A DNA stretch of 51,010 nucleotides, from IMG/VR virus record IMGVR_UViG_3300028590_000025, positions 1 through 51,010 of that record. One strand, given 5' to 3'. This document shows positions 1,576 to 45,753 of this stretch, piece by piece. The notes beneath the pieces are model-generated. The model did no database searches. It was not told the origin of the DNA and was given only the letters and a program-made list of their open reading frames with translations. The translations under genes and the position numbers were made by a program. Numbering within the stretch: the first letter of the stretch is position 1; every line of letters starts with the position of its first letter. This stretch comes from a virus.

Positions 1576-2264
1576 TGGCTGACAAGCCGATCCTATTCTC
1601 CGCGCCCATGGTCAAAGCCCTGTTGGCCGGAACAAAGACGCAGACGCGGCGGTACTTCTCTGCCGATCCTTACCTTGAAGCTGTGGAGCGCACAGCAACG
1701 CAGGGTTGGCGCTTCATCTTGAAGCCCGGCGCTGAACTGTCGGTGAAGCCGCCCCGCATCATGGTTGGCGACCGGCTCTATGTCCGTGAGACATGGAGCG
1801 GCATCCACGCTTTCCGAAATACGCCGCCCGCTCAACGCGAAAGCATGATGACGCCCGACGGGCCGCTACTGCGCGAAGATGTCTGGTTCTGGGCTGATGG
1901 CAATCCTGATGGCGGCGACTATGAGAAGCCCCGTCCCGGCATGCATATGCCCCGCTGGGCGTCGCGCCTGACGCTCACCGTCACCGATGTGCGGGTCGAG
2001 AGGCTTCAGGACATCAGTGAACAGGACGCGTGGGCCGAAGGTTGTGCCAAGGGCGCGCCTGATGACGTGGGCGGCTTCTTCCCCGCTGAGGAGGCCGACC
2101 CCAGCGGCGTCGGCTATCGGGGCTGGGATAACGCCCGCGATTGGTATGCGGACCTTTGGGACCAAATCAACGGCGAGGATGCCTGGGAAGCCAACCCTTG
2201 GGTTGCCGCCTACACCTTCACAGTTGAGCACGGCAACATCGATCAGTTGGCGAGGGCCGCCTGA
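1572..2264 (+). CDS. Phage protein with PUA/ASCH-like N-terminus
   Basis: 230 residues (229 if translation starts at the second ATG, 1575). The opening K-P-I-L-F-S-A-P-M-V-K-A-L-L-A-G-T-K-T-Q-T-R-R is the hallmark of a widespread prophage family, often loosely annotated as morphogenetic or ASCH-like; later come R-L-Y-V-R-E-T-W and W-Y-A-D-L-W-D-Q-I-N-G. ASCH/PUA folds bind RNA or modified nucleotides, but the function of the phage members is unknown to me. It lies among recombination genes in a translationally coupled operon, with overlaps on both sides. Confidence 0.75.
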   Translation: MMADKPILFSAPMVKALLAGTKTQTRRYFSADPYLEAVERTATQGWRFILKPGAELSVKPPRIMVGDRLYVRETWSGIHAFRNTPPAQRESMMTPDGPLLREDVWFWADGNPDGGDYEKPRPGMHMPRWASRLTLTVTDVRVERLQDISEQDAWAEGCAKGAPDDVGGFFPAEEADPSGVGYRGWDNARDWYADLWDQINGEDAWEANPWVAAYTFTVEHGNIDQLARAA

Positions 2265-2413
2265 TGCTGATCATTGCCACCACAAATCGGCAGCACTGCT
2301 CACCTATGCCCGAAATGGGCAAAGAGGCATCGATAGCCCAAGCCATCGCTTTCGCCCGTTCTCGCAAACCTATGGCGAAGGCGCTGCCGAAGATCGTGCG
2401 GAGGAAGCGCTGA
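2264..2413 (+). CDS. Small hypothetical protein (49 aa)
   Basis: A 49-residue frame whose ATG overlaps the upstream stop (TGATG) and whose TGA overlaps the next start. The product is Met/Ala/Lys rich with a strongly basic C-terminus (P-K-I-V-R-R-K-R). No family recognised. It is supported mainly by exact fit between two confident genes. Confidence 0.5.
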   Translation: MLIIATTNRQHCSPMPEMGKEASIAQAIAFARSRKPMAKALPKIVRRKR

Positions 2414-2760
2414 TGCGCGTGCTGGTTTGCGGCGGCCGCAATTACACCGACACCGCCCGCGTCTTTGCTGTGCTGGACAAGCTGCATGGCGAAGCCGGGA
2501 TAGATGTGGTCATCGAGGGGGGCGCTCGTGGTGCCGACGCCTGCGGGAAAGAATGGGCGATCCGCAGGCAGGTTGAGTGCCAGACCTTTGAGGCCGATTG
2601 GGAGAACCAAGGCTCATTCGCCGGCCCCGCCCGCAACAAGCGCATGCTGGACGAAGGCAAGCCCGATCTCGTGATCGCCTTTCCCGGCGGCCGCGGCACT
2701 GCCGATATGGTGCGCAAAGCCCGTCGTGCTGGTGTGGACGTGGTTGAAATCGCGCCATGA
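2413..2760 (+). CDS. DUF2493 / YspA-like SLOG-family protein
   Basis: 115 residues. R-V-L-V-C-G-G-R-N-Y near the N-terminus, then G-G-A-R-G-A-D near residue 37, and P-G-G-R-G-T-A near the C-terminus, form the Rossmann-like nucleotide-binding pattern of the SLOG superfamily (YpsA/DprA-like, DUF2493). Such phage proteins are thought to bind a nucleotide or nucleotide-derived ligand; no enzymatic activity can be assigned. The start is ATG 2413, overlapping the stop of the 49-aa gene; an in-frame open stretch upstream is not part of the family. The stop overlaps the next gene. Confidence 0.8.
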   Translation: MRVLVCGGRNYTDTARVFAVLDKLHGEAGIDVVIEGGARGADACGKEWAIRRQVECQTFEADWENQGSFAGPARNKRMLDEGKPDLVIAFPGGRGTADMVRKARRAGVDVVEIAP

Positions 2761-23627: not shown

Positions 23628-24018
23628 CCTCTGCCGCTTTGGTGGCGACGATCTGCTCCCATCGCTGAGCGACCATGGAGACCCACGGCCTGCCCGGTCG
23701 CCCATTTGCACCGTAGTGGACATGGGCCGCATAGTTGGCCGTGTAGCCCAGATAGAGCACATCGCCTGCTTCGGCGCCGGCTATGACCAGCACGATTTCG
23801 GCAGAAGGGTCTGTCCCGGCCGTGCCATCACCCTCTCGGGTAAGCAAGGGCATTTCGGTCGGGGACGCACGAAGGCTGTTCTTTAGGAAGCCAATATCGA
23901 TCGGCACCAGCGAATTGAGTTCGGAAACAAGCTCTTGCGCCGCTTCCTGAAACAGCAGATCGAACGCACCTTCCACCTTGCGTGCCCATTCGCCCACCTG
24001 GGCCTCGAAAGTGGTCAT
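23605..24018 (-). CDS. Tail completion protein (HK97 gp10-like)
   Basis: 137 residues. V-P-I-D-I-G-F-L-K-N-S-L-R-A and the later Y-T-A-N-Y-A-A-H-V-H-Y-G are typical of HK97 gp10-like/gpZ-type proteins acting at the head-tail joint. Its start overlaps the stop of the Mu-F-like gene (ATGA). It overlaps the 3-prime end of the convergent small gene by 23 bases. Confidence 0.78.
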   Translation of the reverse strand: MTTFEAQVGEWARKVEGAFDLLFQEAAQELVSELNSLVPIDIGFLKNSLRASPTEMPLLTREGDGTAGTDPSAEIVLVIAGAEAGDVLYLGYTANYAAHVHYGANGRPGRPWVSMVAQRWEQIVATKAAEVRSRLGL

Positions 24019-25055
24019 GCCGCGCGCCGTGCCAAGAACTGGGCGGTGTAGTCGATGCGATATTCCACTGCGCAGCGGCAGCCAGACGTTTCGCTGATCG
24101 GCGCCTCAGGATCGCCGGGAAAGCGAAGAGTGGCGCCTGACGGGCTCTGGAACGACTGATAGAAACCCACCTCTTCATTGTTCAGCGCCCGATGGGTGTG
24201 CCTCACACGATTATCGCCGGCAGAGCGCCAGCGCTTCGTGATGAACATCGGGTCCACCTTGCCAGACAGAATGGCCTGCTTCATCGCATCGTCTCGCGAC
24301 TTGCTCAGGGCGGTCATGGTTTCAGTCCGGCTCAGCATCTCGCCGCGGAGAGCCAGCAGGCGGTCGGCGTACCTTCCAGCGATGCGATTGACCATCTCCT
24401 TATCTGGCGCCTTACCCTCTGCGATTGCCTTGCGGATAGCGGCATCGAAGCGCTTGTCTCTGCGTTCTCTCGTCAGGTAATGCCTCAACTGATCGGGCTC
24501 GCCGCTGAGCAGTTCCTGTCGCGCGGCGGAGACAAACCGCTCCTGAGGCGCGGTGAGTCCGATCAACCCGCCTGTCCGATTGCCGGTAGCGCGCGAGGTG
24601 CGGCCGACGATGTCGAGCGCCGTTGTGCGTGGATTGTTACCTTGGGCAAGCCCTTCGGTCAGCGCCGTGCGGATGGCTTCGCGCTGGTCGTCCACGATGC
24701 GCGTCACAAGCTGGGCGCTGTGGTCCCGAAGCCATGCTTCGGCCTCCGGATTGCGAACCCCGAAGCGGAAAGCGATGCGGCTGCCATTGGGATCGCGCAG
24801 GACAAGGCCAGAGGCCATGTCGATACCGCCGGCATTGTAGGCATTGGCGATCTCGATTTCGAGCCGCCCGAAAGCCTCGGCATCAATCTGCAATACCTCG
24901 ATAGCGCCCGCCACGTCACCGCGCTCCAGACGCTCGACAAAGCGTTTCAGCACCACCTGGCTCTTGATCTCAGAGATGGCACCAAGAAAGGCGTCACGGA
25001 CGCGTGGCTCCCAGGCGTCCAGCAACTGTTCGAATGTGGAGCGGTTGGTGGGCAT
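24015..25055 (-). CDS. Mu F-like minor head protein
   Basis: 346 residues from ATG 25055, overlapping the previous stop; the open frame to 25133 lies over that gene. A helical N-terminal region is followed by M-L-S-R-T-E-T-M and K-R-W-R-S-A-G-D-N-R-V-R-H-T-H-R-A-L, then a terminal C-R-C motif (S-G-C-R-C-A-V). This is the Mu gpF/SPP1 gp7 head-morphogenesis signature. It is placed unusually late in the gene order, after the connector genes instead of next to the portal. Confidence 0.87.
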   Translation of the reverse strand: MPTNRSTFEQLLDAWEPRVRDAFLGAISEIKSQVVLKRFVERLERGDVAGAIEVLQIDAEAFGRLEIEIANAYNAGGIDMASGLVLRDPNGSRIAFRFGVRNPEAEAWLRDHSAQLVTRIVDDQREAIRTALTEGLAQGNNPRTTALDIVGRTSRATGNRTGGLIGLTAPQERFVSAARQELLSGEPDQLRHYLTRERRDKRFDAAIRKAIAEGKAPDKEMVNRIAGRYADRLLALRGEMLSRTETMTALSKSRDDAMKQAILSGKVDPMFITKRWRSAGDNRVRHTHRALNNEEVGFYQSFQSPSGATLRFPGDPEAPISETSGCRCAVEYRIDYTAQFLARRAA

Positions 25056-25480
25056 CAGATCGCAAGGTCCAGATCGTACAGCACTGCGACACCAGCCGGA
25101 GCCAATGGCCTCACGGCCATGATCTCTTCCCAAGCATGGGTGGCATCATCGGCTTCATCCACGAACGTCAGGGCCTCGCCCAAGAGGATCGTGTCGTCAT
25201 CGGTCGGAGCAATGCCCGCAGCGCCCGAGATCGTCACGGTACGCTTGGTCATACCGATCAGCGTGCCGTTGATGTCCCGCAGTTCCTTGTCGGACTGCAG
25301 GGCAATGACGGGGAAGTAGGTGATGACCGGATCGCCGGGAATCCATGGTGTCGATGGGTCTGGCGTGCCGGGAACGACGCGCCGGATCGTGGCCGGATAG
25401 CCGTTGGGCTGGGAGACGTCGCCAATGGAGGCGAGAGCGTCTTGAACTTCTGCGGCAATGCCTGTCCAGTCTTCAGCCAT
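25055..25480 (-). CDS. Head-tail connector-type protein
   Basis: 141 residues, beta-rich, with W-I-P-G-D-P-V-I-T-Y-F-P-V and a D-D-D-T-I-L-L-G motif. Its size and position, between the DnaT-like adaptor and the tail completion genes, indicate a stopper or head-closure role. No catalytic motif. It overlaps the next start by one base. Confidence 0.65.
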   Translation of the reverse strand: MAEDWTGIAAEVQDALASIGDVSQPNGYPATIRRVVPGTPDPSTPWIPGDPVITYFPVIALQSDKELRDINGTLIGMTKRTVTISGAAGIAPTDDDTILLGEALTFVDEADDATHAWEEIMAVRPLAPAGVAVLYDLDLAI

Positions 25481-26455: not shown

Positions 26456-27418
26456 TCAGGACGGTGGAGCAGTAACCTCGTCGGCATAGGCCGCTGCCTT
26501 GGGCAGGCGCCATTCGGTGCCGCCGGTACGGGCGATGATGCCAGTTTCAAAGCCCATGATGGACTTCTGGCGCGGCTGCAGCACGGTACGGGGCATCGGA
26601 AGATGGAAGCGAACGACTTCCTCGTCACGGCGATAAGCGACCATGCGACCGCCGCCGTCCTGGGAGGCAGTGGCGAGTTCGCGCACCGGAATGATGTTGA
26701 GGGGCTGATTGGTCTCTGCCGTGTAAATGTTGTTGCGGCGGAGGTATTCCAGAACCGTGATGAACCCGTCGCCAGCGCCGAGGCGCTTGGTGGCGATGAC
26801 ACGGAAGGCATCGGGCGGCAGAGCGATGGTGTCTGCCCACTCGACTTCATTGGTCTGGGTGCGAACGCGGCTCAGGACCTCGTTCACGTCAGTCAGGAGC
26901 TGGTCGACCGTCTTGGCCGCCCAGAAGGTGCCCGGGGTGGCAACATCAGCGCGCGGCACGTCCGGGCTGTTGGCGAAGCCGGTCCAGTTCTTCTCGGCAG
27001 AGCCGATGAAGGCGATGGAGTTCAGGAGGCGCTCAACCTTGTCGGTCGCGCTCATTGCTTTGGTGGCATTGAGGTTGAGGCCGTAAAGCGCTGCCTGGTT
27101 GATCTCCTCGATGTTCCACTCCCAACCGGAGCCGATCATCGCGAAGTCATGGCTCTGCATGTCCTTCGTCGCAGCATTGAACGGCATATCAGTGCCGGCG
27201 CCGGACAGGAACTTGGCTTCGCCGGCAGTGTCCACGGTAAAGAACGTGGTGCCGATCGCCCATGCGTTGCCTTCGGTAACCACAGGGACGACCTGGGCAT
27301 AGTTATAGGTTGGATACCGCTTCTGATAGATGCGGGTCTCGATGTTGCGACCCTGCGCGATGACGAAGGGCATCGCTGCCTGCGCATCGGCAAAGGGCTG
27401 GCGGATCATCTGGTTCAT
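26456..27418 (-). CDS. Major capsid protein (DUF2184 type)
   Basis: 320 residues. The DUF2184 capsid family is recognised from the N-terminal F-V-I-A-Q-G-R-N-I-E-T-R-I-Y-Q, F-A-M-I-G-S-G-W-E-W, and the C-terminal M-G-F-E-T-G-I-I-A-R-T-G-G. DUF2184 proteins adopt the HK97 fold. There is no long N-terminal delta domain, consistent with a separate scaffold encoded in the DUF2213 gene. The distinct terminator after it suggests high expression. Confidence 0.9.
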   Translation of the reverse strand: MNQMIRQPFADAQAAMPFVIAQGRNIETRIYQKRYPTYNYAQVVPVVTEGNAWAIGTTFFTVDTAGEAKFLSGAGTDMPFNAATKDMQSHDFAMIGSGWEWNIEEINQAALYGLNLNATKAMSATDKVERLLNSIAFIGSAEKNWTGFANSPDVPRADVATPGTFWAAKTVDQLLTDVNEVLSRVRTQTNEVEWADTIALPPDAFRVIATKRLGAGDGFITVLEYLRRNNIYTAETNQPLNIIPVRELATASQDGGGRMVAYRRDEEVVRFHLPMPRTVLQPRQKSIMGFETGIIARTGGTEWRLPKAAAYADEVTAPPS

Positions 27419-27438: not shown

Positions 27439-28191
27439 TCAGCGGAGCTTCAGGGAGACTTCAACGATGTCGCCATCGGCCCCCGAAGTGTCGAACGTGG
27501 CATCGGGGATGCGGATATGCGTCGCCGTCGAGGTGTAGCGACCATCGGACGGGTCCCAATACACATCGCCGCCGTCGACAACGGTATCGCCGGCCGTGAC
27601 GTACATCTGGCCCATCGTCATGAAGGCGCCGGTGAAATACTGGGGGTATTCGTCCGCGCCTTGGCCGGATGCGGCGGGCGGGACGGCAGGGGTGAGCACG
27701 GCCAGGCCGAGGAAGTCGGCATTGGCGGTATAGGTGACGTCGATATAGAACGTGTCACCTGCCGTCATGGTGCCGGCATTCGAGATCGTGAAGCTTCCGA
27801 TGCCAGGAATAGACGTGTTGGCAGAGGCGACCACGCCATCACCGACCACGATACCGTCTGGGTCATAGACGATATAGGGCGCGGTTGCGCTGGTCGCGAT
27901 CAGCACGGCCTTGTAGCGGCCGTGCTTGGCGCCTGCCGAGATGGTCGGGGTATCGGTGATAACGCCCGTGCCAACGTTGCCCGCAGCCTCAGAACCGGCA
28001 CCAGTGGCCGCGAACGTGCCGCCGGCAACGACGCCGTGATCGCCAGAGCCGCGAAATGCGGGCTGGCCGAAGGCAATACCCGCAGCCGATTCGACGGTGC
28101 GGGAAACCTTGTTGCACTTCTCCTCATTGGCGATCTGGCCGGGAAGGCCCTTCGCCGGAGCATTGCCGTAAGTGGTCTGATAGGGTGCCAT
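27439..28191 (-). CDS. Capsid cement / decoration protein (Gp24-like)
   Basis: 250 residues, Gly/Ala/Thr-rich and beta-rich. A-P-Y-Q-T-T-Y-G-N-A-P-A-K-G-L-P-G-Q-I-A is the standard opening of structural cement proteins placed just before the DUF2184 capsid gene. The middle (about 85-170) is an inserted or extended beta region that may be surface-exposed. It stabilises the capsid in related phages. Confidence 0.8.
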   Translation of the reverse strand: MAPYQTTYGNAPAKGLPGQIANEEKCNKVSRTVESAAGIAFGQPAFRGSGDHGVVAGGTFAATGAGSEAAGNVGTGVITDTPTISAGAKHGRYKAVLIATSATAPYIVYDPDGIVVGDGVVASANTSIPGIGSFTISNAGTMTAGDTFYIDVTYTANADFLGLAVLTPAVPPAASGQGADEYPQYFTGAFMTMGQMYVTAGDTVVDGGDVYWDPSDGRYTSTATHIRIPDATFDTSGADGDIVEVSLKLR

Positions 28192-28206: not shown

Positions 28207-28764
28207 TTACGCCGTGGCCTTGACGCCACCGGACTGAAGGTCCTGCAGCATCGCAGCGCGAGCGTCGTTGACGGGCTTGAGATCGTCATTGGTGGGCGTG
28301 AGCCCATCGGTGACGGCATCGCGGAAGGGGTCCTTATCGCCGGCCTTCTTCACGGCATCCTCGACGAGGATTTCGAAGCGGGCGTCGATATAGGCCTCGG
28401 GCTTGTCCTTGGCGGCATCACCGACAACGGCAACCACCACGGCCTTCTTGATATCGGCATCAGACAGACCGTCGGTCTTGACGTCCTTGGCGAGCACCTT
28501 GGCCTTGCCGATCAGGTCGGCGCGCGATGCGACGAGCTTGTCGATCGCAGCGGCATCGAGAACCTTGCCCTTGAGGGCGTCGATCTCGGCATCCTTGGCG
28601 GCAAGAGACTTATCCTTATCGGCAATGGCAGCGATGTGGGCGGTCTCGGTTTCCGAGGCCTTCTTGGCTGCATCAGCAATGCGCTTCTGCAGGGTATCGA
28701 TTACGACAGCACCCTGATCGGTCGTCTCGACCGGGATGCCATCGACGATGACCGTCTTGTTCAT
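28207..28764 (-). CDS. Nested in-frame scaffold protein (internal start)
   Basis: 185 residues beginning at Met198 of the protease gene (M-N-K-T-V-I-V-D-G-I-P). AAAAGGA lies seven bases upstream of this ATG, an unusually good internal ribosome site inside a coding region, exactly at the protease-scaffold border. Lambda gpC/Nu3 uses the same device. Translation from the internal start is inferred. Confidence 0.65.
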   Translation of the reverse strand: MNKTVIVDGIPVETTDQGAVVIDTLQKRIADAAKKASETETAHIAAIADKDKSLAAKDAEIDALKGKVLDAAAIDKLVASRADLIGKAKVLAKDVKTDGLSDADIKKAVVVAVVGDAAKDKPEAYIDARFEILVEDAVKKAGDKDPFRDAVTDGLTPTNDDLKPVNDARAAMLQDLQSGGVKATA

Positions 28765-29355
28765 GGGTTTGTCCTTTTCAGGGGTTGCGTCAGTGATCGG
28801 GGCAGCGCCCCAGGAATACGCACCGTCACCGATGCGAAGCTGGTCCCCGCCGCGTGCCTTCTCGACAATCGCGACGTGGTTCATTTTGAAGTCGGACATG
28901 ATGGCGTCGTACGCCTCGCCCGTGGGGCTGATGCCGTCGCCCAAGGTCACATTGGCGTCGTAGCCCATGGACAGTTCGACAGCGGCGCCGGATTCGACCG
29001 TCTGGATGCCTGTGGCATCACGGAGCATCATAGGGACCCGGACGAACTCACCGTCGCGCATCACCTCATCGCCAACCTCACCAACGGCAAGGTCTTTCCA
29101 GGTATCGGCCGTGACCTTGACCGAGGGGTGACCAATGGTGATGGGCACGCCGGCATATGAGCCGATGGCGTCCTTCTTGAAGACCTCACTCTCGGGCCTG
29201 TAGACGCGCACCACGGCCTTGTCGGTGATGCCAAGCTCTGACCCAAGGTAGGCTTGCACATTGCCGCCACGAGCCACGCGCGCCGATACTACGGCATAGC
29301 CATCCGCTGTCCGACGCAGCGCGCCGTCCATCGTCATCCGATCGATGAATTGCAT
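28207..29355 (-). CDS. DUF2213 prohead protease with C-terminal scaffold
   Basis: 382 residues. The N-terminal 180 residues are the DUF2213 protease-like domain: I-T-I-G-H-P-S (His near 86), A-A-V-E-L-S-M-G-Y (Ser near 129) and M-N-H-V-A-I-V-E-K-A-R-G. The rest is a charged helical region typical of scaffolds (A-K-D-A-E-I-D-A-L-K-G-K). A second in-frame ATG at 28764 with its own ribosome site would yield the scaffold alone. It lies between the portal and the cement protein. Confidence 0.85.
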   Translation of the reverse strand: MQFIDRMTMDGALRRTADGYAVVSARVARGGNVQAYLGSELGITDKAVVRVYRPESEVFKKDAIGSYAGVPITIGHPSVKVTADTWKDLAVGEVGDEVMRDGEFVRVPMMLRDATGIQTVESGAAVELSMGYDANVTLGDGISPTGEAYDAIMSDFKMNHVAIVEKARGGDQLRIGDGAYSWGAAPITDATPEKDKPMNKTVIVDGIPVETTDQGAVVIDTLQKRIADAAKKASETETAHIAAIADKDKSLAAKDAEIDALKGKVLDAAAIDKLVASRADLIGKAKVLAKDVKTDGLSDADIKKAVVVAVVGDAAKDKPEAYIDARFEILVEDAVKKAGDKDPFRDAVTDGLTPTNDDLKPVNDARAAMLQDLQSGGVKATA

Positions 29356-29358
29356 GGA

Positions 29359-31233
29359 TTATTCCTCGGTGAGCCCTTCGGCCCAATCCTCTTTGACCTC
29401 GGCAAATAGCTCCGGTCCCAGCACGATCTCGCCCTGGTATGGCTCCACCTTGGACAGGTCGCCCTTGAAGCCATAGCTGATGGTGATGTGCGGCTGGTAC
29501 TCGGGGTGATCCCAAGACCCGCCTGCCTCGATCACGCCCTCATGGCGCCAGCGCAGTTCGTTGGCAGTGAACAGCAGCACGGTTGCTTCACCGAACTGCT
29601 CCATCAGGCGCGGGCCGCCGGGACCAACCTTCAGTTCTGGCGCCCACGATTCCCCGACGCGCATCCAATCGATCGGAGTGCGGCTGTATGCGATGGTGAC
29701 ATGCAGTTCATCGGCCGGAAGCGTGGTTTCAAAGCCTTGCGACTTGGCCCACCGGATGATCTCTGCAGCGTTCTTGACCTTCCGCTGGATATACAGCGAG
29801 CGCGGGGCAGCATCGTTCGCGGCAAGGCGCTGGCGCTGCTGTTCGGCGGGATCGTTGGCATTGGCAGCGACACCAAGGGCGGCCGTTTCGTCGGCCGGGT
29901 CCTCTTCCTGTTCCGAGAGCTTGCCGTATTCCTCGATTGCGGCCTCCAGGCCACTCAAGGAGCCGTCTTCGATCAGTTCGTTGACCAGAGCGTCGGACAG
30001 CGCCTCAATGGGCATCAGCGGCTCGCTGGTGCCGCCATTGCCAGCAATGACTCGGGCAGCGTCGGCCTTCATCTTGAAGGTTTCAGCCTTCTCCTTTTCG
30101 GAGAGGGTATAGAGCGGCGCCCAGCGGCTATAGATCGAAGGGTCTCGGTCACCAAGCGCGGAACGAACAATCACCTCGTCCAGGCGGTTCATGGCCGGCG
30201 TCAGTTCTGTGCGCTGCCGGGCAGCGATGTTGTCGTAATAGTTCTTGAGCGCGGTATCACCGTTGCTGCCGAGCCCGCTGGGGGCCTGCATGAGCAGACG
30301 AGACACCGGGATATCGGCGGCACCAGAGGCGATCTCAAGATACTTCTGCATCAGCTCGGGGAGCTGTGCGAAATTGATCTGCTTCTGCTCCCACTTCTCG
30401 CCCAGCGCCGTATCGCCGTTCGCACCATTGCCCTCGAGCAGCACCATGTTGAACATGGACTTGATCGTATTGGCGTAGGTGAAGCGATCCGTAACCGACT
30501 TGGTGCCGGCAGCCGTGGCCAGTGCCTTTGACAGCCCCGGAATGTAGATGACGTCGGCCTTGGCCTCCGGGATCAGCGCGGCGACATGGGCCTGTGCGGA
30601 ACCTGCATTGATAATGGCATCCCCAACCACCTGAAGGATGGAATCGCCCCAGTTATCCGCGGGGGTCGAGAACCGATCATCCATGACAGGAGCGCCGATG
30701 AAGCGCACCATGCGGCTGGGGTGCACGCGTACCTGCGCACCAGTCCCGCCGTTGACCTCATAATATTCGGGCTGGCCATAATAGACGCTGCGCACGTCGG
30801 TGATCAGCGGCCCAGTGGTGACCTTGCTGCGGTCCAGAACGTGGAGATAGAGCAAGTCGCCCTTCTTGACGTTCTCGACCAGCAATTCCTTGTCTGGGGC
30901 ACCGTCACGCATGCCCATGTAGATGGCGGCGCCACCGAACAGCCGGGCTTTCTGCAGGGCCATGGTGACCTTGGGCTGAAGGCTGATCTCTGGCAGCTTC
31001 TCGACGGCCTCGATTGCCTCGATCTGTTCGTTCGTGGCCTGCCATTCCCGCCACTCGCGGGTCATGTCGTTCGGGATGATGTCCACGACTTTGCGTGCCA
31101 GCCAATCAGACCGGTGCATGGCGTTAAGCTGGTCATCGCCAATGGGCACAAAGACGTAGCCGAGGCTGGTACTCTTGTCCTTGGACGTGCCGAGACCTGT
31201 GACCAGGCTCTTGAGCGTGTCTGCCAGCCACAT
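29359..31233 (-). CDS. Portal protein (DUF1073) fused to Acb1-like 2H phosphodiesterase
   Basis: 624 residues. Residues 1-430 are the DUF1073 portal type (W-L-A-R-K-V-V-D-I-I-P-N-D-M-T-R-E-W, G-G-A-A-I-Y-M-G and a Q-A-P-S-G-L-G-S-N-G-D region). An acidic linker (430-475) leads to a 2H phosphoesterase domain: H-V-T at 511-513 and H-I-T at 582-584, 71 residues apart. Acb1 anti-CBASS enzymes, which destroy cyclic-nucleotide alarm signals, share this 2H fold, and databases link DUF1073 to Acb1-like proteins. The enzymatic activity here is inferred from the intact HxT pair. Confidence 0.85.
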   Translation of the reverse strand: MWLADTLKSLVTGLGTSKDKSTSLGYVFVPIGDDQLNAMHRSDWLARKVVDIIPNDMTREWREWQATNEQIEAIEAVEKLPEISLQPKVTMALQKARLFGGAAIYMGMRDGAPDKELLVENVKKGDLLYLHVLDRSKVTTGPLITDVRSVYYGQPEYYEVNGGTGAQVRVHPSRMVRFIGAPVMDDRFSTPADNWGDSILQVVGDAIINAGSAQAHVAALIPEAKADVIYIPGLSKALATAAGTKSVTDRFTYANTIKSMFNMVLLEGNGANGDTALGEKWEQKQINFAQLPELMQKYLEIASGAADIPVSRLLMQAPSGLGSNGDTALKNYYDNIAARQRTELTPAMNRLDEVIVRSALGDRDPSIYSRWAPLYTLSEKEKAETFKMKADAARVIAGNGGTSEPLMPIEALSDALVNELIEDGSLSGLEAAIEEYGKLSEQEEDPADETAALGVAANANDPAEQQRQRLAANDAAPRSLYIQRKVKNAAEIIRWAKSQGFETTLPADELHVTIAYSRTPIDWMRVGESWAPELKVGPGGPRLMEQFGEATVLLFTANELRWRHEGVIEAGGSWDHPEYQPHITISYGFKGDLSKVEPYQGEIVLGPELFAEVKEDWAEGLTEE

Positions 31234-32765
31234 CAGCCTGTTACTCCCAGCATGCCATAAACGAAGTGCGATTGGGCCAACTCATCGAAGGCCCGAGTTG
31301 CCGCGTCTGCCTGATCCTTGAACTTCCCATTCGGGAACGTGCAAAGCTCATCTAGAAACGGCTCAATCCATGCATCCCTTACCGGGTCGCCCGTCATTAG
31401 AATGTCGACGTTGCCGGCTTCTGCCTGAGCCGATAGCGGACCGGCACGGGTCACCTTGTCGCCACTTTCCGGGCTCGATTTGGCTGTGTAGCCGGCCAAC
31501 TGCTTGACCAAGTATCCAGCCTGTGACTTGCCTGCCTGGCCGGGGTCCTGCGGCAGCGAGATCCGGCACTCCCTGCCATCAGTCGCAGCGGTGCTGAGGA
31601 TCAGCCTTTCGACCCCACCAGACGAAAGATGATCTCGTACCGAATGGGCGATGATGAACCGGCCATCAGGATAGCGGCCGATTTTCACCCCTGCGGTGTA
31701 TGCAGCGCTGTCATCGACCGTTGCTGCCAAATCCCAGCCACGGGCGAACTCTGTGGCGGCGGGAAATGCTGCCTTGAAGGCAAACCAAGCCCGCTTAAAC
31801 ATACCGCCATCTCGGGGCGCGGGGCGCTGCTGGAACTGCCCCGCCGTAGCGTAGGAGCCCATGACCTTCTTGTCGCGCTCCACCACTTCACGGGGAAAGC
31901 GGGCCGGGAATAGCAATTCGCCATCGACCTTGCGCGGGTCCTCGAACCCGATGGAAGTGTAACATTTCCTTTCCGGCTCGAACTCCATCGGCAGCATCAG
32001 ATGCTCGTAGCCGAAGTCCTTGGCCAGGATCATTCCTGCCACGTCGTTCTCGTGCAGACGCTGCATCACCACGATAATCGCGGAGCGATCCGGGTTATTC
32101 AGTCGGGTCGGCACCGCCTCGCGAAACGTCTCATTGACTGCATCGCGCTTGACGTCAGACCCCGCATCATCAACCGATAGCGGATCATCGATCAGCACAC
32201 GGTCACCGCGGGAGCCTGTCAGGCCCGTGAACGCCATCGCCTCGCGAAAACCGGTGGCGTCGTTTTCGAACTTGAGCTTGGCGTTCTGGTCCGACATGAG
32301 CCGAACCGTCGATCCCCAGCGCTCCTGATACCATTCCGAGGCAATCAGGCGCCGCATCTTGAGGTTGTCGCGAATTGCCAGCGGGTGGCTGTGCGACGTG
32401 CCCAAATAGCGCATATGCGGGAGGCCTCGCGGCCCCCACTCCCACGCCGGCCACATCACCCCCACCGAGAGCGACTTCATCGTGCCAGGAGGGACATTGA
32501 TCAGCAGGCGAGTGATTTGCCCGCTGGTGACTGCCTCCAAGTGCTGAGAGACGGCATCGATGTGCCATCCGTGCTTATACGGCTGTCCGGGTTCCAGAAC
32601 GTGCCAAGCTGCCTGTGTGAACGATGCGAGCGAGACGCCTGCGGTCTCGATATCGCGATCAAGGTTCTCCTGCGCCCGCCTCTTCTGCCGTTGGGCTGCC
32701 AGGGCTTCCAATAAGCCCGAGCTTCGCGAGAACGGGATAGGCTGCTTCGAGAGATGCAAGTTCAT
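31233..32765 (-). CDS. terL: Terminase large subunit
   Basis: 510 residues. Walker A-like N-V-P-P-G-T-M-K-S at 90-98, Walker B R-V-L-I-D-D-P near 189-195, and RNase H-like nuclease motif G-W-D-L-A near 343-347 (Asp345). It cuts and pumps DNA into proheads through the portal. Its ATG lies 107 bases inside the small-subunit gene; a later start is possible because the family's conserved part begins near residue 45. The stop is shared with the portal start. Confidence 0.93.
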   Translation of the reverse strand: MNLHLSKQPIPFSRSSGLLEALAAQRQKRRAQENLDRDIETAGVSLASFTQAAWHVLEPGQPYKHGWHIDAVSQHLEAVTSGQITRLLINVPPGTMKSLSVGVMWPAWEWGPRGLPHMRYLGTSHSHPLAIRDNLKMRRLIASEWYQERWGSTVRLMSDQNAKLKFENDATGFREAMAFTGLTGSRGDRVLIDDPLSVDDAGSDVKRDAVNETFREAVPTRLNNPDRSAIIVVMQRLHENDVAGMILAKDFGYEHLMLPMEFEPERKCYTSIGFEDPRKVDGELLFPARFPREVVERDKKVMGSYATAGQFQQRPAPRDGGMFKRAWFAFKAAFPAATEFARGWDLAATVDDSAAYTAGVKIGRYPDGRFIIAHSVRDHLSSGGVERLILSTAATDGRECRISLPQDPGQAGKSQAGYLVKQLAGYTAKSSPESGDKVTRAGPLSAQAEAGNVDILMTGDPVRDAWIEPFLDELCTFPNGKFKDQADAATRAFDELAQSHFVYGMLGVTG

Positions 32766-37910: not shown

Positions 37911-38410
37911 CGTGCGGGCCTTAAATGCGCTCTGACATCGTGGGCGGCGCAGTATGGCGAGCCTTCGAGCGAGTGACGGCCGCAGAACCCGAAGTTTGGC
38001 TTCAGAGGATCGCCAATGGGCCATTTACAGGTGTGCTCGGTGAGATCGAGAATGCTGCCCACAAGCGCGGTGACGTCATTGCCGAGCTCGAGCAGGCCAT
38101 CGGGATCGGCTTCGAGCCGTGGCCCATTGGCGCGGGCAATAGCCACCTCGCGCACGCTGATGCGGGCCTCGACCTTGGGCTTCGCCTTCTTGTCAGCCTT
38201 GGGCTTCCGTGGCGGAGCTGGTGGCTTCGGCGCCCTACCCTTGAGTTGGATCTTCCGGCGCGAGCAGAACCCGATGATCGAATTGCGCGAGCAATTGCGG
38301 AAATGACGGGCGATGGATGATGCTGGATTGCCGTCGAGGATAAGAGCGCGGACGATTTTCACGCGATCCTCGTCTGGCATATCTGACCAGTCAGGGAGTG
38401 CTTCATGCAT
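37907..38410 (-). CDS. gcrA: GcrA cell-cycle regulator homologue
   Basis: 167 residues from ATG 38410 (frame open upstream but over the methyltransferase gene). N-terminal HTH: D-R-V-K-I-V-R-A-L-I-L-D-G, then C-S-R-N-S-I-I-G-F-C-S-R. After a Pro/Lys linker the C-terminus has H-T-C-K-W-P-I-G-D-P, F-G-F-C-G-R and P-Y-C-A-A-H, the full GcrA sigma70-binding domain. Host GcrA activates promoters with N6-methylated GANTC sites. It overlaps an adenine methyltransferase gene by eight bases, so the phage may build its own methylation-dependent activator. Confidence 0.9.
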   Translation of the reverse strand: MHEALPDWSDMPDEDRVKIVRALILDGNPASSIARHFRNCSRNSIIGFCSRRKIQLKGRAPKPPAPPRKPKADKKAKPKVEARISVREVAIARANGPRLEADPDGLLELGNDVTALVGSILDLTEHTCKWPIGDPLKPNFGFCGRHSLEGSPYCAAHDVRAHLRPAR

Positions 38411-38975
38411 GTGCTGGCTCCGCGTCGAATTTGGTGGCTTCATTTCCCCAAGCGTCGAAACCGGGCCGCGACTGGCGCGCGAACAGATCAGCGCGGCGCA
38501 GGCCAGCGGTGTGTTTGTCGACGAGGGCGTAGAATTCTTCGGGCTTGCGACTGTGCTCGCGGGCGATTCCGTCGAAGATCGATGGGAACGCCGAGAACTT
38601 TGGCGGCTTTCCAATGGCGCCGATCAGCACGGGCTCGTGCATCGATCGAGCCCAATAGCCGGTGCCCATACGGACCTTCCCAGCGGGAGTGGTTTTTCGC
38701 CAGACCATTTGCGATTTGTACGTGAAGCCCCAGGCCTTCATGACCTCAAGAGCCTGGGGCTGCATCGCTCCGGTGGCCCACATGAGCAGAATGCAGTCGC
38801 GCTGCGCCAAGTCACCGACGGGCAGAGCCTTGATGTCTTCGGTCTGCATTAGGTCGTAGTGCTTGCTGGCACTTTTGGCTTGGTTCGTCTCCGACCAAGT
38901 GCGAAACCTCCAAGGCGGGTCGGCAATGATCACGTCGTATGACAGCGGCAATAAGGGATCGAAGGGCCAGCTCAT
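38403..38975 (-). CDS. MT-A70 family adenine methyltransferase
   Basis: 190 residues from ATG 38975 (overlapping the upstream stop). Y-D-V-I-I-A-D-P-P-W-R-F near residues 13-24 is the D-P-P-W catalytic motif of MT-A70/Ime4-like N6-adenine methyltransferases; further A-I-G-K-P-P-K and R-E-H-S-R-K-P-E-E-F-Y are conserved in the phage branch. It is probably an orphan enzyme that protects phage DNA or marks promoters. Eight-base overlap with gcrA suggests co-translation. Confidence 0.9.
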   Translation of the reverse strand: MSWPFDPLLPLSYDVIIADPPWRFRTWSETNQAKSASKHYDLMQTEDIKALPVGDLAQRDCILLMWATGAMQPQALEVMKAWGFTYKSQMVWRKTTPAGKVRMGTGYWARSMHEPVLIGAIGKPPKFSAFPSIFDGIAREHSRKPEEFYALVDKHTAGLRRADLFARQSRPGFDAWGNEATKFDAEPAHA

Positions 38976-39991
38976 TGCACCGACTCCTTGATCATCGATG
39001 TGATCTGCGGCCACTGCTTCAGCGCCCCGCGATACCGATCCATGGTGTCGAACCAGGCCCATTTGCGATCCAGCGTCATCAGAGGGCCGGGACCGGTTGG
39101 GCATTGCGAAAGGCTCTGGTGGACCCAGCGGGGCGGCTGCCCGATCACGGCCTTTTCCCGGAGATAGAACCGACCCGATTGCGCCTTGCGCGGCCTATGC
39201 AGCACGTCGGTGACATCGTTCTCGACCAGAGGGCGCAACCGCTCGCTTGGCTTGCTCAGTGGCGGCAGTTCTGGGGCTGGCTGGACCTGTGACTCGACCG
39301 TTGGCGCTTCTGCCTCTGGTGGCTTTGCCACGGATGCGGCGAGCGCTTGCCGCGTCTCTGCCTTCAATGCCCTCTCATAGTCCCACCAGGACACGAGCTT
39401 GATACCCTTGCGGCTGGCTGTAGCGCGTACCGCGTCCTCGCTGATGCCGAGGTGCTGGGCAATGAGCTTGGATGGCCAGTCTGGATGCTCGGCATGGATG
39501 GCGAGAATATTAGCGCGGGCTGTGTCTTTGCGCGGACGAGATGGGGTTGGCGGGGTGGACTCGCATCGGTCCTGCACCCCGCCGGGCTCGCTGGATAGCG
39601 TGCCCTGTTCCGAGGTCTTTGCCTCCGCTGGCCGACGCATTTCCTCATCGTCGGGGAGCGGCTTAGGAGCCTCGGGAATTGGTTCGACGGATGGCAGAGG
39701 CCGGGAGGGGGAAAGCCCCTGTCCATCCGTCGGTACCGCAGCCGGTGCATGGCGGGAGGAGGATTCCGCCGGCTGCGATGGGGTCGAAACCGGAATTCTG
39801 GTTTCGGAAAGGGTGGTGACATCAAGCCGGGTAAATGGGCTGTGAGCACCGGAAATGCTGGTGTGCGAGGTGGTGCCCAAAAGGGCGACAACATCGTCAA
39901 AGTCACAGTCATACTCGGCTGCGATGGAATAGAGCGCGGCACGTCCCTTGTTGTGGATGGCGCGGCTGGTGTGTGCTGAGAGCGTGGTCAT
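38972..39991 (-). CDS. HTH protein with long disordered region
   Basis: 339 residues. Residues 1-45 are a small helical domain, 50-150 a Pro/Ser-rich disordered region, and 155-200 a helix-turn-helix (S-K-L-I-A-Q-H-L-G-I-S-E-D-A-V-R-A-T-A) followed by G-I-K-L-V-S-W. The last 90 residues include P-R-W-V-H-Q-S-L-S. The function is unknown; a replication-initiator or transcription-factor role is possible. Overlaps with both neighbours. Confidence 0.6.
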   Translation of the reverse strand: MTTLSAHTSRAIHNKGRAALYSIAAEYDCDFDDVVALLGTTSHTSISGAHSPFTRLDVTTLSETRIPVSTPSQPAESSSRHAPAAVPTDGQGLSPSRPLPSVEPIPEAPKPLPDDEEMRRPAEAKTSEQGTLSSEPGGVQDRCESTPPTPSRPRKDTARANILAIHAEHPDWPSKLIAQHLGISEDAVRATASRKGIKLVSWWDYERALKAETRQALAASVAKPPEAEAPTVESQVQPAPELPPLSKPSERLRPLVENDVTDVLHRPRKAQSGRFYLREKAVIGQPPRWVHQSLSQCPTGPGPLMTLDRKWAWFDTMDRYRGALKQWPQITSMIKESVQ

Positions 39992-44646: not shown

Positions 44647-44871
44647 TTAGCTGGCCACGGCCATGAGGGGCGGAGGCGCTGTCGCCTCGCCATAGATGTC
44701 GGGCCGCAGGTCATGGCGCGAGACGCCAGTGACGGCCTCGACCGCCAGCACTCGCCCCACCGGGCAAACTTCCCACTGAGAAATCGCCTGAGACGTGATG
44801 TTCCCAAGCGCCTTGGCGAGCTTGGTAGCGCCGCCGGCCTTCTCGATTGCTGTCTTCAGTGCGTTTTCCAT
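44647..44871 (-). CDS. cro: Cro/YdaS-like repressor
   Basis: 74 residues from ATG 44871. A-I-E-K-A-G-G-A-T-K-L-A-K-A-L-G-N-I-T-S-Q-A-I-S-Q-W-E is a Cro/YdaS-type helix-turn-helix. It faces the CI gene across an 84-base region with three operator-like sites, and leads the leftward early operon, as cro does in lambda. It should bind the same sites and favour lytic growth. Confidence 0.85.
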   Translation of the reverse strand: MENALKTAIEKAGGATKLAKALGNITSQAISQWEVCPVGRVLAVEAVTGVSRHDLRPDIYGEATAPPPLMAVAS

Positions 44872-44880
44872 GACTGCATT

Positions 44881-44895
44881 GAAAGCACAGCTTTC
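44881..44895. promoter_or_regulatory. Operator-like site O1
   Basis: Perfect inverted repeat GAAAG-CACAG-CTTTC, 10 bases upstream of the cro start. It shares the GAAAG-N5-CTTTC form with four other sites in the immunity region. Confidence 0.78.
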
Positions 44896-44903
44896 CGTTC
44901 GAT

Positions 44904-44918
44904 GCAAGCGAAACTTTC
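44904..44918. promoter_or_regulatory. Operator-like site O2
   Basis: GCAAG-CGAAA-CTTTC, one mismatch to the consensus. Its centre is 23 bases from that of O1, about two helical turns, which would allow cooperative repressor binding. Confidence 0.65.
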
Positions 44919-44925
44919 GATGATT

Positions 44926-44940
44926 GAAAGCTTAGATTTC
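44926..44940. promoter_or_regulatory. Operator-like site O3
   Basis: GAAAG-CTTAG-ATTTC, one mismatch to the consensus, centre 22 bases from O2 and close to the cI start. By analogy with OR3 it may control cI itself. Confidence 0.62.
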
Positions 44941-44955
44941 GGCAATCTCTGCGGC

Positions 44956-45753
44956 ATGGATACCATTGCTGCCAGAATCAAGTTTGTCCGGAAGAGTGCC
45001 GGCCTCTCCCAAGAAGCCTTTGGCAAAGCGCTGGGCGTGTCCCGCGGCGCTGTGGGCAATTGGGAACTGGACAAGGACATCGGCAAAGACAACCTACTCG
45101 CCATCGCGAAAGAGTGGCGCGTGAGCCTGGACTGGCTGATGAACGGGAAGGGCGAAGCGCCGGATCGCGACGACATCCTCGGAACTGAAGTCTTCAAGGA
45201 CAATGCGCCGAAGGCGTATTCCACCTTCGACCCTGACGAGGAATGGAAGCCTGAGACAGAGTTTGAGGGCGAAGCTTATACCCGCGAGATGTGGACGCCG
45301 CGCCAGCCCGGCGCACTGCCCGAACTGGATCTCAAGGTCGGTGCCGGCGAAGGTTCTGTGGGCGATATCCTGGTGCTCGAGCACAAGGGCCATGCCTACT
45401 CTGGCCATCGTATCGTGGACGAATGGCTCTTCCCCGAGAGCTTCCTGCATTATGCCGGCACAAGCCCGAACCATTCGATCGTTGCCGAAGTAACCGGCGA
45501 TTCCATGGTTTCGTCCTACCTGCCCGGCGACCGCGTTGTGGTCGACCTGAGCCAAGAGATGAGCGTGGACGGGGTTTACATGTGGAGCGATGGGCATAGC
45601 CCGCCGCAGATCAAACGGCTCCAGCGCATCCCCTTCAGCGATCCGCCGCGCGTCGAAATCAGCTCCGACAACAAGGCCTATAAAAGCTTCGAGGCACCCC
45701 TAGCCGAGGTCCGCATCTTCGGCCGGATCACCTGGCACTTGGGCCGGAGATAG
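44956..45753 (+). CDS. cI: CI-like repressor with S24 peptidase domain
   Basis: 265 residues from ATG 44956 (ATG 44920 would add 12 but sits over O3). N-terminal HTH: S-A-G-L-S-Q-E-A-F-G-K-A-L-G-V-S-R-G-A-V. C-terminal S24 domain: E-V-T-G-D-S-M (Ser183), Y-L-P-G-D-R-V-V-V and Q-I-K-R-L (Lys220) form the Ser-Lys dyad for RecA-stimulated self-cleavage. So the prophage is probably SOS-inducible. No ribosome site is seen before this ATG, so the mRNA may be leaderless as for lambda cI from PRM. Confidence 0.9.
   Translation: MDTIAARIKFVRKSAGLSQEAFGKALGVSRGAVGNWELDKDIGKDNLLAIAKEWRVSLDWLMNGKGEAPDRDDILGTEVFKDNAPKAYSTFDPDEEWKPETEFEGEAYTREMWTPRQPGALPELDLKVGAGEGSVGDILVLEHKGHAYSGHRIVDEWLFPESFLHYAGTSPNHSIVAEVTGDSMVSSYLPGDRVVVDLSQEMSVDGVYMWSDGHSPPQIKRLQRIPFSDPPRVEISSDNKAYKSFEAPLAEVRIFGRITWHLGRR

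Follow-up and report, generated by a model that had tools for sequence, protein, structure and literature searches.

Why would the portal protein of a phage carry, at its C-terminus, a domain that resembles Acb1, the anti-CBASS 2H phosphodiesterase of phages T4 and FBB1? We addressed this question in a viral sequence of 51,010 nucleotides (IMG/VR record IMGVR_UViG_3300028590_000025), the whole of which is referred to here as the window. An earlier note, made from the sequence alone, had read one of its genes as a portal protein with a 2H phosphodiesterase domain of its own.

The fusion gene and its genomic context

The 624-residue open frame described previously was recovered, and it lies on the minus strand, from 31233 to 29359 (Table 1). 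The plus strand of the same interval is interrupted by stops. The N-terminal part is a portal, as had been proposed. It matches the PF06381 profile, its top match in Foldseek is the Pam3 portal (8hds_A), and the gene is located between terminase and head genes, in agreement with the features of DUF1073 portals. The context is that of a head module, with genes for the small and large terminase subunits upstream, and genes for the protease, cement and capsid proteins downstream.

Additionally, the window encodes a CI-like repressor with an S24 peptidase domain (44713-45750, plus strand), and on the basis of this CI/S24-type repressor the phage is probably temperate. We also found a protein of the YAcAr/SLOG family, a class of predicted nucleotide-ligand binders (1987-2757, plus strand), a separate MuF-family head morphogenesis protein with no evident effector domain (24015-25133, minus strand), and an adenine methyltransferase of the MT-A70 family (38406-39104, minus strand). 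A PADLOC scan for defence families, covering the fusion and six ORFs of the window, gave no match.

Table 1. Coordinates of the portal-Acb1 fusion, its parts and neighbours in the window, and of portal tails with other or additional enzymes in related loci
Feature	Sequence	Position	Strand	Remarks
Portal-Acb1 fusion gene, 624 aa	window	29359..31233	minus	ATG at 31233, stop at 29361-29359
Portal body, residues 35-394	window	30052..31131	minus	PF06381 Phage_portal_3 (former DUF1073), E 1.5e-96
Flexible acidic tail/linker, residues 440-474	window	29812..29916	minus	pLDDT <50 in the full-length model
Acb1-type 2H phosphoesterase domain, residues 479-619	window	29377..29799	minus	PF23474, E 1.9e-41
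First HxT motif, H511-V-T513	window	29695..29703	minus	equivalent to H44/T46 of T4 Acb1
Second HxT motif, H582-I-T584	window	29482..29490	minus	equivalent to H113/T115 of T4 Acb1
Terminase large subunit	window	31233..32765	minus	directly upstream of the fusion; PF17289, phrog_38
DUF2213/head maturation protease	window	28207..29355	minus	directly downstream of the fusion; PF09979, phrog_530
Structural cement protein (E217 gp24/Pam3 gp6 family)	window	27439..28191	minus	PF22758
Major capsid protein	window	26456..27418	minus	PF09950, phrog_264
Portal tail: ADP-ribosyltransferase (ART)	L241	4923-9944		three matches in 1674 aa
Portal tail: ART	L279	4872-7040		
Portal tail: PBECR3 nuclease	L252	2932-4887		
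Portal tail: Acb1 + ART	L039	3459-6398		
Portal tail: Acb1 + ART	L041	163-2745		
Portal tail: Acb1 + PBECR3	L202	1830-4223		

Identity and conservation of the C-terminal domain

In a Pfam search, the fusion protein scored 141.6 bits against the Acb1 profile PF23474, for which the gathering cut-off is 27, whereas the generic LigT profile was far weaker on the domain (E 6.8e-5). An AlphaFold (AF2) model of the domain, built from 55 sequences of the window and IMG/VR, reached a mean pLDDT of 90. Its top PDB matches in Foldseek were the Acb1 structures 7t26 (apo) and 7t27 (product-bound), with TM-scores of 0.65-0.74, followed by a phosphodiesterase of Burkholderia phage BCSR5 (9q2y, 9q2g) and then by LigT of E. 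coli. Structure prediction thus recovered the 2H fold, with crystal Acb1 as the best match. Both HxT motifs, HVT and HIT, are exactly at the residues given in the earlier note, and its assignment of the domain as Acb1-like is borne out by profile, fold and catalytic residues alike.

The catalytic tetrad of T4 Acb1 consists of H44, T46, H113 and T115, with Y12, W74, F107 and W147 as stacking residues and E141 as the adenine contact (PMC9117128, Hobbs et al.). We surveyed these positions in 120 distinct domains fused to portals, accepting T or S at the last position of the tetrad. The HxT/HxT tetrad was intact in 118 of them, the exceptions being one H-to-R and one T-to-M replacement. The tyrosine equivalent to Y12 was present in all 120 domains and the tryptophan equivalent to W147 in 101 (with 14 gaps), and both are present in the window. 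The position of F107 is usually occupied by His, as it is in the window, and W74 has no clear counterpart, its placement being ambiguous. At the position of E141, Glu was found in 62 and Ala in 33 of the 120 domains; the window has Ala aligned to E141 and Glu one residue further on. Since E141 is aligned to Ala and W74 is without a clear counterpart, the substrate range may differ from that of T4 Acb1.

Nearly all close pairs gave a dN/dS ratio below 1 for the domain, with typical values of about 0.05-0.3; one close pair had zero synonymous changes in the domain and is uninformative. In the alignment of the fusion family, the invariant columns are concentrated in the Acb1 domain and include both catalytic His residues. 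Because the tetrad is kept in nearly all fused domains and the domain is under purifying selection, we expect it to be a catalytically competent 2H phosphoesterase of the Acb1 type.

Distribution and optional presence of the domain

The fusion was identified in the cultured phages Pam3, RHEph04, RHEph05, RHEph06, RHph_TM3_3_3, phiPSA1, MR15, psageK9, Ssp-JY39, Ssp-JY40, Susan and Erebus, in many IMG/VR contigs, and in 45 of 47 loci from bacterial genomes, mostly of alphaproteobacteria with some pseudomonads. With full-length homologues in cultured phages, IMG/VR contigs and prophages, the portal-Acb1 fusion is real and widespread, far beyond chance. Acb1, which has been described as rare and confined to specific phage groups (PMC11722364), is thus common on portals of alphaproteobacterial and some pseudomonad phages and prophages, where it is hidden by the labels 'portal protein' or 'hypothetical protein'. 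A SMODS cyclase scored above the family cut-off in only 10 of the 37 prophage-bearing genomes searched, a count that has no matched control set and is uninformative.

The domain is nevertheless an optional cargo on otherwise similar portals. Among 78 distinct portals sampled with the portal body alone as query, Acb1 was present in 33 (one with a further tail), whereas 38 ended after the acidic tail (within 60 residues) and 7 had longer tails without Acb1, in some cases bearing ADP-ribosyltransferase (ART) or PBECR3 domains. For the 45 portals lacking the domain, the sequence covered contained no separate Acb1 gene in the orientation of the portal gene. The portals of loci L037, L040 and L042 are 60-68% identical to that of the window and end directly after the acidic tail, the next head gene being the DUF2213 gene, so the Acb1 domain is not essential to the portal.

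Other cargo domains, a second portal family and possible module exchange

Other enzymes were found at the same C-terminal position, either in place of Acb1 or after it (Table 1). Acb1 also occurs on unrelated portals of the PF04860 family, in a metagenomic phage (L092:1202-3838) and in the genome of Methylosinus sporium (L138:4651-6468). In the tree, these two fusions branch outside the PF06381 group with support values of 0.91 and 0.73, so an origin independent of the PF06381 fusion is likely, though not proven, from the phylogeny.

Divergence within close pairs differed between the two parts of the protein. The portal dN was 0.019 against 0.278 for the Acb1 domain in L052/L139, and 0.064 against 0.329 in L025/L132; likewise, the portal bodies of the window and L024 are much closer than their Acb1 domains. 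Near-identical portals with diverged Acb1 domains suggest that the domain has been exchanged as a module by recombination.

We also noted several unusual genes. The portal at L083:3483-7310 has a C-terminal extension of 850 residues with three DUF7178 matches, and the long C-terminal extensions of the L085 and L086 portals had no Pfam match. The gene at L137:5833-6894, from a Rubellimicrobium prophage, combines Acb1 and a Gp49/HigB-like toxin domain in one frame, and the MuF-type protein encoded just upstream (L137:3732-5771) matches an intein weakly. Gp129 of Roseobacter phage DSS3P8 (L003:4489-4941) was considered as an Acb1-protease fusion and rejected, the 150-aa gene being free Acb1 alone; its label 'prohead protease, HK97 family' looks wrong.

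Location of the domain in the head and possible release

The acidic segment that had been described as a linker is indeed present, but it belongs to the portal itself, as its C-terminal tail. Portals without Acb1 carry an acidic tail of identical type ('EYGKLSEQEPDEE...'), and we therefore rejected the idea that the segment evolved for the fusion. The proposed 12 portal copies agree with the Pam3 homologue 8hds, which contains 12 identical chains. By contrast, exposure of the enzyme on the virion, which the earlier note had also considered, is unlikely, as the C-terminal barrel of the E217 portal projects into the head (PMC10329688).

The Pam3 structure is the only solved full-length homologue, and 442 residues of its 621-residue sequence are present in the coordinates. 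The Acb1 domain is apparently missing from this model, as judged from residue count rather than residue numbering, and 8hds was absent among the 50 matches listed when the domain model was compared with the PDB. Given these two observations and the low pLDDT of the acidic tail (Table 1), the domain is probably invisible in 8hds, either because the tail is flexible or because the domain has been removed.

No in-frame ATG, GTG or TTG was found at residues 427-515 of the window protein, and an internal start yielding free Acb1 was rejected on these grounds; a free domain would therefore need a protease. At the equivalent stretch in relatives of the window fusion, some in-frame start codons occur. 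Release by the adjacent DUF2213 protease is possible. A D[AG]xP motif is conserved at the junction of linker and domain in 119 of 121 sequences; L092, L138 and Erebus have either a weak form of it or none. It is a lead to a protease site only, and may instead be structural.

Proposed function and alternative explanations

We propose that the C-terminus of the portal is a cargo position for an Acb1-type enzyme that would be loaded into the head, released by a protease and injected to cleave CBASS-like cyclic nucleotides, an account to which we give about even chances. Up to 12 copies of Acb1 would be carried on the flexible portal tails inside the head, be released by a head protease, and enter the cell with the DNA, where the 2H phosphodiesterase would cleave the cyclic di- or trinucleotides with which CBASS-like immunity signals. 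Injection would require cleavage, because the portal to which the domain is attached remains with the capsid, and an enzyme entering with the DNA would already be there when phage gene expression begins. The fusion has an effector domain on a head protein, as do virion-delivered polyvalent effectors. In a broader version, the portal tail would be an exchangeable effector slot, present 12 times per head, in which Acb1, ART and PBECR RNase are swapped or stacked, freed by the protease and ejected, with an anti-CBASS effect before phage expression; we regard this version as possible but hold it tentatively.

Alternatively, the same enzyme could work at a late stage of infection with nothing injected, its activity in the host cytosol coming from portal subunits that are nascent or not yet assembled. 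Being fused to a late head gene, the enzyme would be made at the same time as those head proteins to which CBASS activation or escape has been linked (PMC12409349; PMC10419184), and this makes the alternative attractive. It would also make a release step unnecessary. However, a separate late gene would suffice for such a role, and T4 encodes its Acb1 on its own, away from the portal region. That fusion to head proteins recurs, and that ART and PBECR3 occupy the same position, suggests that location in the head matters, and we consider late action the less likely of the two accounts, although it is the main rival and a serious one. Acb1 built into the portal may disarm cyclic-nucleotide immunity at entry or, on the late reading, act when the head proteins linked to CBASS sensing appear.

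Two further explanations concern the activity itself. The domain might act on RNA, as a Usb1-like RNase or in the processing of 2',3'-cyclic-phosphate ends, rather than on immune cyclic nucleotides. Such activities are known among 2H enzymes, PHROG 755 is labelled 'RNA ligase', and the passage of Iyer et al. on these proteins gives priority to an RNase function, given that PBECR RNases occur in similar fusions (PMC5512222). Nevertheless, the fold is closest to that of Acb1 rather than to LigT or Usb1, the Acb1-specific Pfam model is far above the generic 2H models, the equivalents of Tyr12 and Trp147 are largely kept, and its authors observed no association of these 2H versions with RNA ligases (PMC5512222), which makes an RNA substrate improbable. 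We regard as very improbable that the domain has lost its enzyme function and serves the portal structurally, in assembly or DNA contact. It does belong to an essential structural protein, as all portals are, but close relatives of the window portal and 38 of the 78 sampled portals do without it, and the invariant columns of the family alignment include its catalytic residues. None of our analyses gave any sign that the domain has a structural role.

Comparison with known systems

The domain has in common with Acb1 of T4 (gp57B) and phage FBB1 (7t26/7t27) the fold, the HxT/HxT tetrad, the base-stacking Tyr and the C-terminal Trp, with 26% identity to the crystal structure in the structural alignment. 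Those enzymes are stand-alone proteins of about 150 aa, that of T4 being produced inside the infected cell, whereas the domain of the window forms the C-terminal end of a portal. The portal of Pseudanabaena phage Pam3 (8hds) has the same two-domain architecture over nearly its full length (437 bits), differing in its second motif, which is HIS rather than HIT. The portals of Rhizobium phages RHEph04 and RHEph06, Pseudomonas phage phiPSA1, Synechococcus phage Ssp-JY39 and Sinorhizobium phage Susan are identical in architecture and diverged in sequence. Portals with ART or PBECR3 tails (L041, L202, L241, L252 and L279) share the portal family and the C-terminal position, and differ in carrying another enzyme or an additional one after Acb1.

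The closest precedent in concept is provided by the polyvalent-type proteins in which 2H domains are joined to portals or MuF proteins. In the passages concerned, Iyer et al. reported these fusions in 2017 and predicted degradation of immune nucleotides (PMC5512222), and in 2022 took such fusions to suggest packaging in the head and injection (PMC9503650); the idea put forward in the earlier note is therefore not new. The class of architecture and the proposed role are identical to ours, whereas Acb1 is not named in the descriptions of the fusions there (PMC5512222, PMC9503650). The present analysis adds the link, through the catalytic residues, between the 2H tail of the PF06381 portal family and biochemically proven Acb1, together with the optional presence of the domain, its occurrence on a second portal family (PF04860), its stacking with ART and PBECR3, indications that it is exchanged as a module, and the residues apparently missing from the Pam3 coordinates.
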